From: a virus
Reading direction: 5' to 3' (one strand)
Virus record (IMG/VR): IMGVR_UViG_3300030329_000259
Span: 1-29,632 of that record
Length of the DNA: 29,632 nucleotides
Part shown: piece by piece, positions 2,097 through 17,827 of the stretch
Layout of the letters: each line of letters opens with the position of its first letter
Position numbering within the stretch: the first letter of the stretch is position 1
Made by a program: the position numbers and the translations under genes
The notes under the pieces: generated by a model
Databases searched by the model: none
Seen by the model: the letters and a program-made list of their open reading frames with translations, nothing else
What the model was told of the DNA's origin: nothing

Positions 2097-2663
2097 CTAC
2101 GAAGATACTACACCACCTAATGTAAATCCACCATTATCAAATGGGTTTGTAGTATAATCAGGCACAAATTGGAAAGGCTGTTGCTCTAACCCATCAAAAG
2201 TTAAAGTGTAACCATTTCTATCACCAAATGCTGCTCCACTATCCATAGTTCCTGCATTTAATTCCATTCCATTAACACTACCAAGACATACTATAACATC
2301 GTGTCCTGTAGCAGTTACTGTTTGATTTAATTGTGCAAATATAATTACTTTTGTTGCTCCTAGTAATTTTATCTGATTTTGGTCTTCTTTTGTTAATCTA
2401 TTTAATATAATATTTACTGTTGGAGTATAAAATATCGTTCCATTTTCTCTTGAGCCTGTAATAGTATCAGTAAGACTTGCAACACCTAAAGGCATTGTAT
2501 ATCTATAAAGACTATTAGCACCCATTTCTAAATCAGTAATTTCACCATTCGCTGTTGGTATTGAAGTTACTTGGTCATAAACTGCGAAATAAATAAATTT
2601 TATTCCACCTGATATTCTATTACAATCAAGTCCTCTACCTTTTGTTAATGCTGTACACGCCAT
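2097..2663 (-). CDS. Putative major tail tube protein
   Basis: A 188-residue protein whose pattern fits tail-tube proteins of Bacteroidota siphoviruses. It opens with CNRISGGIKFIYFAVYD, has SLYRYTMPLG and GTIFYTPTVNIILNRL in the centre, then NGMELNAGTMDSGAAFGDRNGYTLTFDGLEQQPFQFV, where the GDRNGYTLTF-GxE-FxFV end is characteristic. The tube polymer surrounds the tape measure and carries DNA into the cell. The gene follows the major capsid gene across a 62-base gap holding a stem-loop, and a terminator follows it, as suits a highly expressed product. Assignment is from remembered family patterns. Confidence 0.7.
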   Translation of the reverse strand: MACTALTKGRGLDCNRISGGIKFIYFAVYDQVTSIPTANGEITDLEMGANSLYRYTMPLGVASLTDTITGSRENGTIFYTPTVNIILNRLTKEDQNQIKLLGATKVIIFAQLNQTVTATGHDVIVCLGSVNGMELNAGTMDSGAAFGDRNGYTLTFDGLEQQPFQFVPDYTTNPFDNGGFTLGGVVSS

Positions 2664-2686
2664 TGTTATAAGTTTTAAAGGTTAAA

Positions 2687-2714
2687 GGAGCAGAGGTTTT
2701 TACACCCCTGCTTC
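2687..2714 (-). terminator. Stem-loop between capsid and tail-tube genes
   Basis: On the minus strand AGCAGGGG, an 8-base loop and CCTCTGCT pair over 8 bp including one G-U, with two further pairs beyond one mismatch. The following bases (CCTTTAACC) are not a T run, so this may be a partial terminator, an mRNA-stabilising 3' end for the capsid message, or an attenuator rather than a full terminator. Confidence 0.5.
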
Positions 2715-2725
2715 TTGTATTAATT

Positions 2726-3643
2726 TTATGATTGTCTTACAATATCTGCTCCTACTCCTGTTTGAACACCCATAGAGTATTTTGCAACCACTCTAATGTT
2801 ATCAGACCCGTCTAAGTTAGCCATATCAAGTAAAGCAATACGTGTCGTATCTGAAAGTAAATCAGTCCCCGCAAACATATTACTTCTTTGTGCTGCTACT
2901 AATTGATTGTCAACCATACCTGGACAAACTGCAATCTTGTATCCTTCAAATACAGGCTCATAGTCACCATTCATATTGTAAGCATTAACATATCCTAATG
3001 TAGATACTGCTGATACATAGAAAGCGTAAGTCTTAGGATTCATATAAATATGTAAGTCTTCCTTTCTTAATATTGCTGAAACATTAGCAGCCATATCTGC
3101 TGTTAAAGTTTGTAAGTTTGCTATAATGTTTGCTGCTGTATAAGCACCTGATGCAGATGATTGTATAACTGTTGCATCAACACCTGGTAATAAGTAACCT
3201 GTTGCAGTTCCTAAGAATCCTGCGAACTCACCATTGTTAGCCGCTACACCTGACCATATTGAATCTTCAGCAGCATCTGCTATGATTTCACCCATATAAG
3301 ATATTACATAGTCATCAAATGATGGTGGTGGTGGAGCACCTGCTCCTGCTCTCATTTGTAATGCTTCCCACGAACTAAGCAGCGTAGTCTTGCACAAATC
3401 CAAATTAATTTGTAGATTTTTTGGTTCGAGAACTTTTTCCGTTAATGCAAGTGTTCCATTGTCAGTAAAGTCACACGTAGCATCTCTCACTACTGAACTC
3501 CCCGCCATCCGCTGGATATTGCTTTTATATTTGATATTTTCTATCAAAGTTAGATAGTCTAAACTTCTTGTTTCTTTTAGTGCCGCCGAAATATAAAACC
3601 CCGCCGCCTTACCACTAAAATTGCTTGTTACTGTAAACGCCAT
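2726..3643 (-). CDS. Major capsid protein (HK97-fold type)
   Basis: A 305-residue protein of the size expected for a Bacteroidota-phage major capsid protein. Visible parts are an N-terminal arm, a long-helix region around FDDYVISYMGEIIADAAEDSIW, and the late segments IYMNPKTYAFYV, YEPVFEGYKIAVCPGM and NMFAGTDLL, followed by a closing run of beta strands (IRVVAKYSMGVQ). It forms the icosahedral shell. The scaffold and XkdF-like protease genes lie directly before it in transcription order, which supports the call. The first 60 or so codons hold GC-rich runs (such as GGCGGCGGGG) unusual for this AT-rich genome. Confidence 0.8.
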   Translation of the reverse strand: MAFTVTSNFSGKAAGFYISAALKETRSLDYLTLIENIKYKSNIQRMAGSSVVRDATCDFTDNGTLALTEKVLEPKNLQINLDLCKTTLLSSWEALQMRAGAGAPPPPSFDDYVISYMGEIIADAAEDSIWSGVAANNGEFAGFLGTATGYLLPGVDATVIQSSASGAYTAANIIANLQTLTADMAANVSAILRKEDLHIYMNPKTYAFYVSAVSTLGYVNAYNMNGDYEPVFEGYKIAVCPGMVDNQLVAAQRSNMFAGTDLLSDTTRIALLDMANLDGSDNIRVVAKYSMGVQTGVGADIVRQS

Positions 3644-4413: not shown

Positions 4414-4443
4414 TATATAATAGAATGTTTTATTTTTTATTTG
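4414..4443 (-). promoter_or_regulatory. Putative phage late promoter, copy 4
   Basis: CAAATAAA (4443-4436), 11 bases, then TCTATTATATA (4424-4414) on the minus strand. Here the ATG of the scaffold gene is 21 bases further downstream, unlike the 2-3 bases at the other four copies, so the element is not merely a ribosome-binding spacer. The upstream box overlaps the last codons of the protease gene. Confidence 0.55.
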
Positions 4444-5047
4444 ATTTTTGACTTTCTCTTATTATTTCATTAAGTGCTGATAATATCTCTAAGTCAGTTG
4501 GTTTCTTTTCTTGCATTTGCTCGAACTTATTTGTGAAATATCCTTCAATAGACAACCCTTTCAATTCTCCTTCCTTAATCTTGTTCCATAAGTCGTCATT
4601 GTCTATTCTCATTTTTACAAACCAAGTACCATTAGGTAAATCAAAACCATACATCTTTGACTTATCCATATCACCCTCTTTAATCCAACTTTCTACTGTT
4701 AGAACTCCTGACACTCTGTCTTGGTGTTGGTAAGTCGCTTTATGATGGTTATTGTGTTTTAAATAAAGTTCACTGGCCTTTCTTACTGTTTCAGGACTAA
4801 AATATACATAATAGTCTGAGTCAGTATTAGGGTCATATCTAAATATTTGTTTGTTAGGTATTAAAGCAGGAGAAACTAACATACGCTTTTCTTCATCTAC
4901 TTTAGCAAATGTTAAATTGTTCTTTTCTTTACCAAAAAATACAAAGTCTTGCTCTATTGCAGGGGCAGTTACTAGACTTATAGCGTCTATTGCTAATTCT
5001 TGGTTATCGTCTTCTATTACAAGTTCTATAATCTTAGTTTCTTTCAT
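4430..5047 (-). CDS. XkdF-like prohead protease
   Basis: A 205-residue protein when started at ATG 5047, preferred because it follows the previous stop as TAA-T-ATG, a junction used repeatedly here; an in-frame ATG at 5086 would add 13 residues overlapping the gene before. It has the features of the XkdF-like putative serine protease family: LVSPALIPNKQIFR, YYVYFSPETVRKAS, a His/Asn-rich NNHHKATYQHQDRV, VESWIKEGD, GTWFVKMRI and a final KIKEGELKGLSIEGYF. It likely cleaves scaffold and capsid proteins during head maturation, matching its place just before both genes. Catalytic residues were not fixed. Confidence 0.75.
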   Translation of the reverse strand: MKETKIIELVIEDDNQELAIDAISLVTAPAIEQDFVFFGKEKNNLTFAKVDEEKRMLVSPALIPNKQIFRYDPNTDSDYYVYFSPETVRKASELYLKHNNHHKATYQHQDRVSGVLTVESWIKEGDMDKSKMYGFDLPNGTWFVKMRIDNDDLWNKIKEGELKGLSIEGYFTNKFEQMQEKKPTDLEILSALNEIIRESQKSNKK

Positions 5048-5048
5048 A

Positions 5049-5534
5049 TTAAAAAGTATATCTTTTACTATATGTAAAATAATCATCTACGTTTTTTTCG
5101 GCTTCAGCAAGACTAGGAACATCACTACTTTTTAATCCTAGAGATTTTAAGGCTTTTGTAACATCTTCTTGCAATCCTCTTAATTTAGGAAATATTTTAC
5201 TAGCATTTGCGCCTAAATCTCTTAATTGGTCATCTAAATTTTCCCATTTTTTTCCTATTTTTTCTATTTTAGTCAAAATAGTTTTCATTTGTTTATTAAA
5301 TTTTATTAAATCATCTACATCTCCTAATTCTATTCTTTCAATTTTACTTAAATTAAATTCTTTTAACTCTTTTTCGTATTCTTCATAGGTTTTATTACCT
5401 AATGGTGTTGGTATTTGTTTCATTTTACTATATTTTTTAGGATTTGCTTTTTCACATTCGTCTTTAGTGGCGTATTTACACTCTCCTGTGTTACCCCACT
5501 TGTATTTATCGTCTTTACATTTTTTACACGGCAT
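5049..5534 (-). CDS. Cys-containing coiled-coil protein of unknown function
   Basis: A 161-residue protein starting with CKKCKDDKYKWGNTGECKY and DECEKANP, a four-Cys N-terminal segment that could hold zinc. The rest is Lys/Glu/Leu-rich helix (about 50-145) with coiled-coil character. It starts two bases after a TCTATTATATA element, so it opens a transcript, and ends one base before the protease start. Sitting between the tape measure and the head protease, it may be a virion or assembly protein. I recall similar N-termini in other Bacteroidota phage proteins but cannot name the family. Confidence 0.6.
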   Translation of the reverse strand: MPCKKCKDDKYKWGNTGECKYATKDECEKANPKKYSKMKQIPTPLGNKTYEEYEKELKEFNLSKIERIELGDVDDLIKFNKQMKTILTKIEKIGKKWENLDDQLRDLGANASKIFPKLRGLQEDVTKALKSLGLKSSDVPSLAEAEKNVDDYFTYSKRYTF

Positions 5535-14597: not shown

Positions 14598-14627
14598 TAT
14601 ATAATAGAAAAAGTTGATATTTAGTTT
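14598..14627 (-). promoter_or_regulatory. Putative phage late promoter, copy 2
   Basis: TCTATTATATA (14608-14598) on the minus strand, two bases before ATG 14595. The upstream box at the same 11-base distance is degenerate (AAACTAAA, 6 of 8 against CAAATAAA). It lies in the 30-base gap between the terminase and the tail chaperone. Confidence 0.55.
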
Positions 14628-15966
14628 ATTGTACATAATACTTACCAAAGTTGCTGTCTATTTCATAAAACATTCTCATTGCTAATGCATCAGAATAATC
14701 AGGAGAACGTCCTAAAATTGCTTTTACTGTGTCTTTTGGTAATATTTGTAATTTATTATCTTTATCTGCATCTTTAGTTCTTACTTGCTCTAGTTCTTCT
14801 ATAATATGTTGCTTAACATTTACATCAGAACAACTTATGCCTAATTGACCTTTGTTGATTAAGTCTGCAAGTTTATAGTAACATTGTGTTTTTAAGTTTT
14901 GATAATTCTCATTTTTTAAAGCCTTAGAATTATTTACAAATCCTTTACAACGTAAATAGTCTTTTACACCACCACCTACTCCATCTTCATCAACAATTAT
15001 ATTTCTTAAATTAACTTGATTTTCTTGTTGTAATTTCTTAATCTCGTCTACAACGTCATTTACAGCCGATTTAAGCAACGTTCTCACATAAGTAATGTGT
15101 AACCCTTTCCAAAGCATTATAACTGTTCTATCGCTTCCAAAACGTGCTACATCACAAGTTATGTATTTTTCACCATCAACACCTTTTTGACTAAAAAGAC
15201 TTACTATTGAATTATAATCTATTAAATTATCATCATTTACATCATATTCCCAATTACCAAATAATAACCTTTGCTTACTTAATTCATCTAATTCAGATAA
15301 TTGCTTCTCATAATGCTTAGATATATAAGTATTATCTCCTACTAATGATTGAATAAATTTTCTATATGGTTTTAATGTTCCATCTTTAGCAGGTTTATAA
15401 TAAGATGTATATACCCAATTTTTTGCAGGATTACAAGTCATTAACATAGATGGTTTTAAATTGTTCTCATCTAATTTATATCTTAGTCTTGATGCTACTA
15501 TATTTTTTGCTTTTTCAGTTATTTGGTTTGCTTCATCTATAAATGCTGCTGTAATTTCTAATGAACCCAAATTATCAAAGTTAGGGTCTGATGGATATAA
15601 GAATAAGTCTTTTAATATTATTTCTGAACCATTATAAAATGTAATAATATTAGAATGTCCATTAAATGTATAATCTCTCCCTGATTCTAATTTCCAATAT
15701 GCACAAACTTCAAAGAAAGTATTTAATGTTGTCTTTTTAAGTGAATCTAATTTACTTCTACCCATCAAATATCTTGTTTTAGGATAATCTAAACACATTA
15801 TAATTAAATAACTTACTCCTATCCAAGACTTACCACCTCCTGCTGCTCCCCCAAATAATACTTCTTTTGTATCATTATCGAATAAATACTTTAAACATTG
15901 TTTCTGAGTCTGAGTAAATTCAGGTTTAATCTCCAAGATTGATGTTAATTTTGATTCTTTGTTCAT
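14626..15966 (-). CDS. terL: Terminase large subunit
   Basis: A 446-residue DNA-packaging motor. ATPase domain: Walker A GGAAGGGKS at 39-47, Walker B ITAAFIDEA at 138-146 with D144/E145, and coupling motif MTCNP at 176-180. Nuclease domain, RNase H-like: CDVARFGSDR with D272, IIVDEDGVGGG near 324-333, and SPDYSDAL with D426. It pumps DNA into the prohead and cuts concatemers. It overlaps the small-subunit gene by 41 bases, and the tail module follows. Size and all motifs fit an intact, functional terminase. Confidence 0.95.
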   Translation of the reverse strand: MNKESKLTSILEIKPEFTQTQKQCLKYLFDNDTKEVLFGGAAGGGKSWIGVSYLIIMCLDYPKTRYLMGRSKLDSLKKTTLNTFFEVCAYWKLESGRDYTFNGHSNIITFYNGSEIILKDLFLYPSDPNFDNLGSLEITAAFIDEANQITEKAKNIVASRLRYKLDENNLKPSMLMTCNPAKNWVYTSYYKPAKDGTLKPYRKFIQSLVGDNTYISKHYEKQLSELDELSKQRLLFGNWEYDVNDDNLIDYNSIVSLFSQKGVDGEKYITCDVARFGSDRTVIMLWKGLHITYVRTLLKSAVNDVVDEIKKLQQENQVNLRNIIVDEDGVGGGVKDYLRCKGFVNNSKALKNENYQNLKTQCYYKLADLINKGQLGISCSDVNVKQHIIEELEQVRTKDADKDNKLQILPKDTVKAILGRSPDYSDALAMRMFYEIDSNFGKYYVQ

Positions 15967-16264
15967 CTGATGTTATGTCTAATTTATTAGTTTCATTCCA
16001 ACCTAACTGTGTTTTTGCTGCGTGTAAAACCACTGATGGTACTTTGTCTTTTACACATTCATAATATTTAGACTTGATAAAATCATTTGCTATATTTTGT
16101 ATATCGGCTACATCTTTAGCAAATTGTTCGTCTTCTTTTAACCATTTATAATAATTCGTTCTAGAAAGTTCCGTTGTCTTTAATGCAGTTGTAACTACTC
16201 CTAGTGATTTCTCTAATGCTTGTAGCATTCTTTTTTTGTTGATTTGTGTTCTATTTTGTTCCAT
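15926..16264 (-). CDS. terS: Terminase small subunit
   Basis: A 112-residue protein with an N-terminal helix-turn-helix (about 9-45: KKRMLQALEKSLGVVTTALK, then SRTNYYKWLKED) and a helical oligomerisation part ending KVPSVVLHAAKTQLGW. The pattern of a transposase-like HTH plus HAAKxxLGWxE is common in phage small terminases. It recognises packaging DNA and loads the large subunit. It overlaps the genes on both sides (14 and 41 bases), implying coupled translation. Confidence 0.8.
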   Translation of the reverse strand: MEQNRTQINKKRMLQALEKSLGVVTTALKTTELSRTNYYKWLKEDEQFAKDVADIQNIANDFIKSKYYECVKDKVPSVVLHAAKTQLGWNETNKLDITSDEQRIKININLGD

Positions 16265-17330
16265 TTTGTATATATCTAAATGCTGCTGTTATTCTATTTT
16301 TTGTACTTGTTTTATTAAATCCTACCATTTTTTGCTTGCCTGTATTCCTTCCAAAAAAGTAACATTTCCAATTTTTATGTCTTTTTAATGAGAAAATTAA
16401 ACTTGGAGCAGATGTAGTTATTCCCATTATATATTTTTCGGTAGTATATTTCTTTGCTATAAAATCTAATAATCTTCCTCCTATTCCAATTCCCTGATAA
16501 TCAGGTAGTATTACTAATCTATGTACTTTTTTTAAATTAGGTACTTTATTAGGTAAATGTAATATACTTATAAATCCTGCTATTTGTTCATTAACGTATG
16601 CTACATAAGTATGTGCTGCATTGTTATGACTATGGCTCAAATAGTGGTGTTTAGCAAATATTCTCCATATTGACTTATCTCCTGTTTTGAATATTTCAAA
16701 TTTAACTTTTGGTCTATTTTTTTTTTGCCCTTCAAGTATTTGAAAGGTCATACTATCAGTATTAAATACCCAATCAGGTAATAGCCAATCTTGTACATCG
16801 TGATGACAAGTAACTGCTATAAATTGTTTGTTTGATTTCCTTATTGCTTTTTGCATAGCATAAGAACCTATTTTTGCTACATTTCTATCTACAACTGATG
16901 TAAATTCGTCAAATACTATTAATTTATCTTCTTTTAATAGTGCATTTGCTAAATCTACTCTCATTTTTTGACCATTGGACAAAACTGAATAAGGCTTTAA
17001 CCAACTTGGTGGTGAACTGAAGCCTACACTATTAAATATTTTTGTAATATCATCTACTGATGCTGTTTCAGGCATATCATCTAATATAGTTTCTGCTTTA
17101 TAATCAAAATTAGTAACATAAGCATCTTTGAATAATTCTTTTGCTATTGTTGTTTTTCCTGTACCACTATTACCAACTATTAATCCTATTTTCCAATTTT
17201 CAGGCATATCTATACTACCTTTAAAATGTTCTTTTATATGTTCAGTTTGTAAGTCAAACTTACCCATTACTGAAGAAACTCTAAAAGTCTTTTTAGGTTT
17301 GCTTTGTCTTAGAATGTCAAAATTCGGCAT
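16251..17330 (-). CDS. ABC-type ATPase fused to GNAT acetyltransferase (COG2401-like)
   Basis: A 359-residue two-domain protein. Residues about 20-200 are an ABC ATPase: Walker A GNSGTGKTT (53-61), signature LSNGQ (117-121), Walker B LIVFDE (137-142) and H-loop CHHD (175-178). Residues about 210-350 are a GNAT fold with acetyl-CoA motif RLVILPDYQGIGIGGRLL (271-288). No membrane segments, so not a transporter. This architecture is that of COG2401, 'ABC-type ATPase fused to a predicted acetyltransferase'. It overlaps the ParB-like gene by 22 bases and the small terminase by 14. A role in DNA modification or packaging control is inference; the substrate is unknown. Confidence 0.85.
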   Translation of the reverse strand: MPNFDILRQSKPKKTFRVSSVMGKFDLQTEHIKEHFKGSIDMPENWKIGLIVGNSGTGKTTIAKELFKDAYVTNFDYKAETILDDMPETASVDDITKIFNSVGFSSPPSWLKPYSVLSNGQKMRVDLANALLKEDKLIVFDEFTSVVDRNVAKIGSYAMQKAIRKSNKQFIAVTCHHDVQDWLLPDWVFNTDSMTFQILEGQKKNRPKVKFEIFKTGDKSIWRIFAKHHYLSHSHNNAAHTYVAYVNEQIAGFISILHLPNKVPNLKKVHRLVILPDYQGIGIGGRLLDFIAKKYTTEKYIMGITTSAPSLIFSLKRHKNWKCYFFGRNTGKQKMVGFNKTSTKNRITAAFRYIQNGTK

Positions 17331-17827
17331 TTATATCCTTTTTTAATTAATTCATTATATACTTGTTCTTGTTCTCTTTCTGATGTTAATTCTATTTCAA
17401 CTCTATATTCTTCAGAAATATTATCTGATATATCATTTACATCACTATTATATTCGTCATCTTTATTTTCCCAAACATCTAACCCCCATTCAGCAAGTTG
17501 TACACTATCCCACTCATTAGCCAACATATCCCATTCCCACTCACCAAAGTTTACATTGTCTTTTACTATAAATTCATCTTTTTGCTCTGATGTTAAACCT
17601 TCTGCTACATCTATCCATACTTCTTTAAGTCCTGCATCTTTACTTGCTTTTAATCTCATATTACCACCTAATACCATCATATTTTCATCTACTATTATTG
17701 GTCTTAACTTTAACATTTCAGGAAATTCCTTAATAGACTTTACTAATTTTTTAAATTTATCATTCTTAATTATTCTAGGATTATTAGGATTTCCTTTTAT
17801 TTTGTATAACTTAACTTGTTGTTTCAT
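17309..17827 (-). CDS. ParB-like nuclease-domain protein
   Basis: A 172-residue protein with a ParB/Srx-type domain at about 5-115: IKGNPNNPRIIKNDKFKKLV, LRPIIVDENMMVLGGNMRLK, KEVWIDVAEGLT and the following DEFIVKDNVNFGEWEWDML. In many phages this domain is fused to an adenine methylase, but here the chain ends after AEWGLDVWENKDDE with a short tail (YRVEIELTSEREQEQVYNEL), so no methylase is present. Its partner by overlap is the ABC-GNAT gene, suggesting joint work on DNA. It starts two bases after a TCTATTATATA element. Nuclease or CTPase activity is not proven. Confidence 0.8.
   Translation of the reverse strand: MKQQVKLYKIKGNPNNPRIIKNDKFKKLVKSIKEFPEMLKLRPIIVDENMMVLGGNMRLKASKDAGLKEVWIDVAEGLTSEQKDEFIVKDNVNFGEWEWDMLANEWDSVQLAEWGLDVWENKDDEYNSDVNDISDNISEEYRVEIELTSEREQEQVYNELIKKGYKCRILTF

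Follow-up and report, generated by a model that had tools for sequence, protein, structure and literature searches.

A probable DNA base-modification cassette formed by a ParB-like protein and an ABC-ATPase/GNAT fusion next to the terminase genes of a marine phage

Introduction

The closest described relatives of the proteins studied here belong to the GNAT-ABC ATPase family, for which an acyl modification of DNA, as yet uncharacterised, has been predicted (PMC7824862, citing Iyer 2013). Jumbo-phage relatives, such as Tenacibaculum phage pT24, are predicted there to produce an acylated DNA base. The prediction that ABC-GNAT proteins modify DNA is already known. In the better-known com-mom system, Com activates the translation of mom (PMC6483171).

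Here, we analyse a 29.6-kb virus record from a marine phage, which is referred to throughout as the window (the whole stretch of 29,632 nucleotides). Its minus strand encodes, in this order, a ParB-like protein, an ABC-ATPase/GNAT fusion (ABC-GNAT), the small terminase subunit (TerS) and the large terminase subunit (TerL). The pT24 protein is a match of the window ABC-GNAT (match H27), with 38% identity at 2e-45. From comparative sequence analysis, we consider it likely that the ParB and ABC-GNAT pair constitutes a self-contained DNA base-modification cassette that marks phage DNA against restriction.

Results

Organisation of the locus

The following features were located, with coordinates referring to the window:

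17309..17827, minus strand: ParB/Srx-like protein, 172 aa, with a constant N-domain (residues 1-136) and an exchangeable C-terminal tail
17312..17419, minus strand: C-terminal 36-residue "mini" domain of ParB (residues 137-172), found with our own HMM and phrog_28816
17309..17330, minus strand: 22-base overlap of the ParB stop and the ABC-GNAT start, probable translational coupling
16251..17330, minus strand: ABC-ATPase/GNAT fusion, 359 aa, from Pfam, phrog_11143 and a structure model
17151..17174, minus strand: Walker A motif GNSGTGKT of ABC-GNAT
16968..16982, minus strand: ABC signature LSNGQ of ABC-GNAT
16905..16922, minus strand: Walker B motif LIVFDE of ABC-GNAT
16797..16808, minus strand: H-loop CHHD of ABC-GNAT
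16635..16649, minus strand: HHYLS motif near the start of the GNAT domain, with a Mom counterpart, HYSRR, at a comparable place (weak profile match)
16479..16520, minus strand: GNAT acyl-CoA pyrophosphate loop RLVILPDYQGIGIG of ABC-GNAT
16266..17456, minus strand: block exchanged as a unit (ParB tail and enzyme), from breaks in nucleotide identity; the right-hand edge is approximate, to about 10 bases
15926..16264, minus strand: TerS, the downstream flank of the slot (phrog_4044, 8.6e-5)
14626..15966, minus strand: TerL (PF03237, 1.9e-6; phrog_2, 1e-31)

The original prediction described two genes that overlap each other by 22 bases and also overlap the small terminase gene. Both statements hold: the two open reading frames are real, lie on the minus strand and share positions 17309-17330, and ABC-GNAT shares 14 bases with TerS (16251-16264). 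The 22-base overlap exceeds what chance would give: it is conserved in 48 of the 49 window-like loci checked, and it is the most frequent ParB/ABC-GNAT overlap when one locus is counted per cluster at 60% identity (16 clusters), translational coupling being its probable meaning. The single promoter-like element proposed for both genes was not upheld, as the 23 sigma-70-like matches in the region are not above those in shuffled sequence (21.1 +/- 5.2), and no such match is located on the minus strand immediately before the ParB gene.

A methylase candidate elsewhere in the window (4430-5086), which matches phrog_1530, "DNA methyltransferase", was rejected, given that the same protein matches head maturation proteases. 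Judged from this protein, the label of phrog_1530 is a misleading family name.

The ParB protein and its mini tail

The window ParB is matched weakly by ParB_N (8e-5, below the cutoff of that family) and at 1e-23 to 2e-25 by phrog_940, phrog_498 and phrog_620. A Foldseek search with its model returned ParB CTPases (9e-6) and sulfiredoxins. A motif of the G-x-x-R type is present as GGNMR, in which G55 is invariant and R58 nearly so in the alignment. The protein, at 172 aa, comprises only the N-domain and the mini tail; the ParB proteins of chromosome and plasmid partition are characterised by a central HTH, a dimer domain at the C-terminus and a ParA partner. Pfam and phrog scans of the gene revealed no fused methylase domain. 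In the original prediction, the ParB domain was described as of a kind that usually comes fused to a methylase, which is missing here.

With our own HMM, 226 of 337 loci were found to have the mini domain directly upstream of ABC-GNAT, at the end of the preceding gene. Where Mu-like phages lack ParB, the mini domain is encoded immediately before ABC-GNAT by a stand-alone gene, which is 42-49 residues long and is matched by phrog_28816. BLASTP of these stand-alone proteins against the window ParB gave no match; the link between them and the ParB tail is provided by our HMM and by phrog_28816, which matches the C-terminus of the ParB of Gordonia phage Axumite. Three of the six invariant residues in the ParB alignment (E150, C167 and R168) fall within the tail. 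As the mini domain recurs upstream of ABC-GNAT, persists as a stand-alone protein and holds half of the invariant residues, we infer that it is a partner-specific dock to ABC-GNAT. Neither ParB nor the mini domain was found in the P12024S/T4-type lineage, which indicates that the adaptor is not obligatory. The ParB proteins encoded beside Mom (L377:645-1220 and L373:2469-3002; L-numbers designate the loci compared) end not in a mini domain but in a CPxC half zinc ribbon that is reminiscent of Com.

Domains, motifs and fold of ABC-GNAT

That the second gene encodes an ABC-ATPase/GNAT fusion is confirmed by Pfam (ABC_tran, 1.1e-9; Acetyltransf_7, 2.2e-9) and by phrog_11143, which covers residues 6-356, i.e. 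the full length with both domains, at 4.4e-98. The Walker A, LSNGQ, Walker B and GNAT acetyl-CoA motifs, which had been described as intact, were all located at the sequence level, in addition to the H-loop CHHD. An alignment of 43 diverse homologues shows no or almost no variation at the key residues of the ATPase and acyl-CoA motifs. The structure model (pLDDT 87) exhibits two clean domains, with an ABC fold at residues 1-209 (Z 15.7) and a GNAT fold at residues 210-355 (Z 15.1), the latter matching an ordinary acetyltransferase, 1y9k. The fold matches with an alignment spanning both domains include PDB 2zpa (E 3.6e-7, TM only 0.30), the solved structure of TmcA, a tRNA cytidine acetyltransferase. 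TmcA is an ATPase joined to a GNAT and acetylates a nucleobase amine with ATP. Given the low TM-score, TmcA is considered as an analogy only.

The analogy with Mom, on which the original prediction had drawn, was a good lead, but membership of the GNAT domain in the Mom family is not established by profile comparison. The hhalign probability against the Mom profile was 17%, with HHYLS aligned to HYSRR, and dropped to 5% with deeper alignments; homology to Mom was accordingly set aside. Mom (PF25680) was also absent among the 25 Pfam families listed for ABC-GNAT, with E up to 0.083. A solved Mom structure was absent among the fold matches listed, from which no conclusion is drawn.

Exchange of the ParB tail and the enzyme among relatives

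We gathered 80 loci whose TerL is 82-98% identical to that of the window, and counted the occupants of the slot between ParB and TerS only in those relatives with ParB in view, whose TerL is 83-98% identical. An N6/N4 methylase fused to ParB fills the slot in six loci (L461, L468, L473, L495, L515 and L516), and a TET-associated glycosyltransferase (TAGT, PF20691) in six others (L462, L463, L464, L465, L471 and L527). Mom (PF25680, 7e-37) was identified in one locus, L523; 9 of these 13 methylase, TAGT and Mom cases are confirmed by Pfam, the remainder being assigned via sequence similarity. ABC-GNAT itself is present in L459 and L510, the latter with split ABC and GNAT and with a formyltransferase-fold gene. 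In two further loci (L531 and L534, both at 2239-3171), the slot is occupied by a 310-aa protein without a family match; no Pfam match was obtained for the L531 protein, which was scanned, and the protein is a candidate DNA-modifying enzyme.

In most relatives, DNA identity to the window ends at 17457, inside ParB, and is regained at 16261-16273, where TerS begins. ParB residues 1-125 of the window are nevertheless 95% identical to those of the methylase fusion in L461 and 93.5% identical to those of the TAGT-linked ParB in L462. Given these sharp breaks and the constancy of the N-domain, we read the alignments as showing that the ParB tail and the enzyme are exchanged as one unit, whereas the adaptor stays. 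The missing methylase is thereby accounted for, as a methylase and ABC-GNAT take each other's place in a single slot. Many close TerL relatives have no ParB at the position of the cassette, which indicates that the cassette is dispensable. All counts refer to contigs, many of which are related to one another.

A comparable exchange was found in cultured phages. Arthrobacter phage Sonny encodes ParB, a small gene and Mom, and EastWest encodes ParB-mini and ABC-GNAT; the two phages are 64% identical in the upstream gene, 54.5% in the ParB domain and 80% in the downstream gene. By this comparison, Mom and ABC-GNAT are swapped between matching flanks. ParB also immediately precedes Mom in Microbacterium phage Antuna.

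Com and partner genes in Mu-like relatives

In 16 Mu-like loci, ABC-GNAT is preceded by a Com homologue at a distance of 270-348 bases. Outside these loci, the Com HMM had no match in about 60,000 ORF segments, and none in window-like loci. As a control for specificity, Com loci were gathered regardless of the downstream gene, the best 80 of 399 yielding 76 loci. In this sample, Com precedes D12 methylases in 41 loci, N6/N4 methylases in 23, C5 methylases in 4, ABC-GNAT in 6 and unassigned genes in 2, so that a methylase or ABC-GNAT follows in 74 of the 76. Judged by the genes that follow it in this sample from the best 80 of 399, Com marks DNA-modification genes. Two loci, L444 and L451, have Com homologues with no recognised modification enzyme after them. 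Two Mu-like phages of Pseudomonas, with com regions that are 70% identical, differ in what comes after com: mom in GEC_PNG14, and mini, ABC-GNAT and formyltransferase genes, in this order, in Komp_PAO1_1. Aeromonas phage PX29 carries Mom and ABC-GNAT genes at separate places (L374:232-1116 and L094:3851-5029).

A formyltransferase-fold gene is located close downstream in 59 of 80 Mu-type loci, which suggests that the primary product is elaborated further in this lineage. No such gene lies beside the cassette of the window, nor was the family reported among the other window proteins; the product of the window may therefore be the simpler one. The formyltransferase-fold partner (at L092:5083-5700, L097:5128-5601 and L089:1805-2452, and in Mu-type loci) lacks the catalytic Asn of N-x-H-P-S-L-L-P in all 61 readable sequences, most of which have G-Y-H-P-S-L-L-P, and its chemistry may thus not be ordinary formyl transfer. 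In Rhodococcus phage Jace, ABC-GNAT is followed by an aspartate decarboxylase (L086:5101-5526; PF02261, 2e-33), perhaps another elaboration of the adduct.

Distribution of ABC-GNAT

ABC-GNAT homologues were identified in phages that infect widely differing hosts, i.e. Lactococcus, Streptococcus, Gordonia, Pseudomonas, Leptospira and Porphyromonas, among others, in hundreds of viral contigs, and in genomes including those of Planctomycetota and Nonomuraea, mostly within phage-like neighbourhoods where these were checked. Among ten neighbouring genes of genome loci that were scanned, seven were terminase or portal genes, two were of cellular type and one encoded a small HTH protein. The Planctomycetota copies were accordingly not retained as cellular, and most genome copies, perhaps not all, are probably proviral. 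Besides the fused form, a split form, in which the break falls near the ABC/GNAT border, is also common. L252 contains tandem full-length copies, and L101 and L306 an additional GNAT copy.

Discussion

The proposal that the pair chemically marks phage DNA is well supported by context, i.e. by Mom, a methylase or TAGT in the same slot and by Com in Mu-like relatives. We favour a DNA-modification cassette because of the slot exchange, the swap between Sonny and EastWest, the presence of Com in Mu-like phages and the recurring mini tail. In the mechanism that we propose, the ParB/Srx domain would serve as the DNA-side adaptor, retained while the enzyme changes, and its C-terminal 36-residue unit would dock whichever enzyme follows. 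The ABC ATPase would spend ATP to engage DNA, the predicted substrate, and to present a base. With acyl-CoA as the donor, the GNAT domain would then attach an acyl group, the predicted modification, to an exocyclic amine of the presented base, whichever base this may be. Phage DNA marked in this manner prior to packaging would be expected to escape host restriction.

Regulation of packaging was the alternative raised in the original prediction; in such a scheme, ParB would bind the packaging site and the ABC/GNAT protein would modify terminase or capsid proteins. Among the visible loci, TerL does lie within 2.5 kb downstream in all 69 of the window-like type and in 34 of the 66 from bacterial genomes, and the ABC-GNAT gene overlaps TerS. 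However, no TerL was found within this distance downstream in 37 of 54 visible Mu-type loci and in 52 of 57 visible P12024S/T4-type loci, and phages with terminases 83-90% identical have a methylase, Mom, a glycosyltransferase or no cassette in view. Since most Mu-type and T4-type copies are located away from the terminase, a packaging role is unnecessary, and we regard regulation of packaging as highly improbable.

It is also very unlikely, in our view, that the GNAT domain acetylates a host protein, such as RNA polymerase or a defence protein, to which ParB and the ABC domain would deliver it. The match of its fold to an ordinary acetyltransferase (1y9k, Z 15.1) is in keeping with this, as are the known phage GNATs that acetylate proteins (PMC7824862), but it would leave unexplained why a methylase, Mom or TAGT can take the place of the enzyme next to one and the same ParB, and why Com is present upstream in Mu-like phages. 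The least probable reading is that ABC-GNAT is cargo, acting as a defence or exclusion effector rather than as a self-protection enzyme. Although the cargo at this site varies and PADLOC reported a weak match to Mad3 (9e-11), this match spans part of the ABC domain only, the cassette has no visible nuclease partner, and those alternative occupants of the slot that were identified modify DNA, with neither toxins nor nucleases among them. As PADLOC gave this one partial match only, a defence system was rejected.

Returning to DNA modification, a broader formulation, which we consider evenly balanced, is that of a plug-and-play platform, in which a constant ParB/Srx adaptor would be combined with interchangeable blocks of tail plus enzyme (methylase, Mom, TAGT, or ABC-GNAT with or without the formyltransferase-fold partner). 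The tail would act as the address code for the enzyme, and the product of the ABC-GNAT version would be a base modification so far unobserved in nature. A common adaptor role of ParB, if correct, would explain why phage ParB-like proteins are so often found beside methylases without an obvious partition system. Slot exchange and the association with Com provide independent and specific grounds for the predicted modification of DNA by ABC-GNAT, and the comparison names cultured carriers in which to seek the modified base, among them Pseudomonas phage Komp_PAO1_1, Lactococcus phage P335, Gordonia phage Axumite and Nonlabens phage P12024S. The exchange boundary further offers a simple route to additional DNA-modifying enzymes, via whatever occupies the slot.

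With regard to known systems, TmcA resembles the window protein as an ATPase-GNAT fusion with a weak fold match across both domains; it differs in that its ATPase is of the helicase type and its substrate is tRNA. The com-mom system of phage Mu is similar in position and regulator (in Mu-like relatives), in the exchange with Mom (in Arthrobacter phages and window relatives), in the GNAT fold and in the HHY/HY motif. In contrast, the window cassette showed no significant sequence relationship to Mom, adds an ABC ATPase, has an intact acyl-CoA loop and belongs to loci without Com. Phage ParB-DNA methylase fusions (phrog_498) share the slot and a ParB N-domain that is up to 95% identical, whereas in the window the mini tail takes the place of the methylase, together with ABC-GNAT as a gene of its own. 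The predicted GNAT-ABC ATPase family (phrog_11143, pT24) has the same domain order and is homologous across both domains, to which the window adds the ParB-mini partner. In the literature searched, where Iyer 2013 was represented by the paper that cites it, we found no account of slot exchange, of an association between Com and ABC-GNAT, or of the mini domain. The part that appears to be new is the context, namely a ParB that stays constant while its tail and the enzyme change, blocks with sharp boundaries, the association with Com, and the mini domain.
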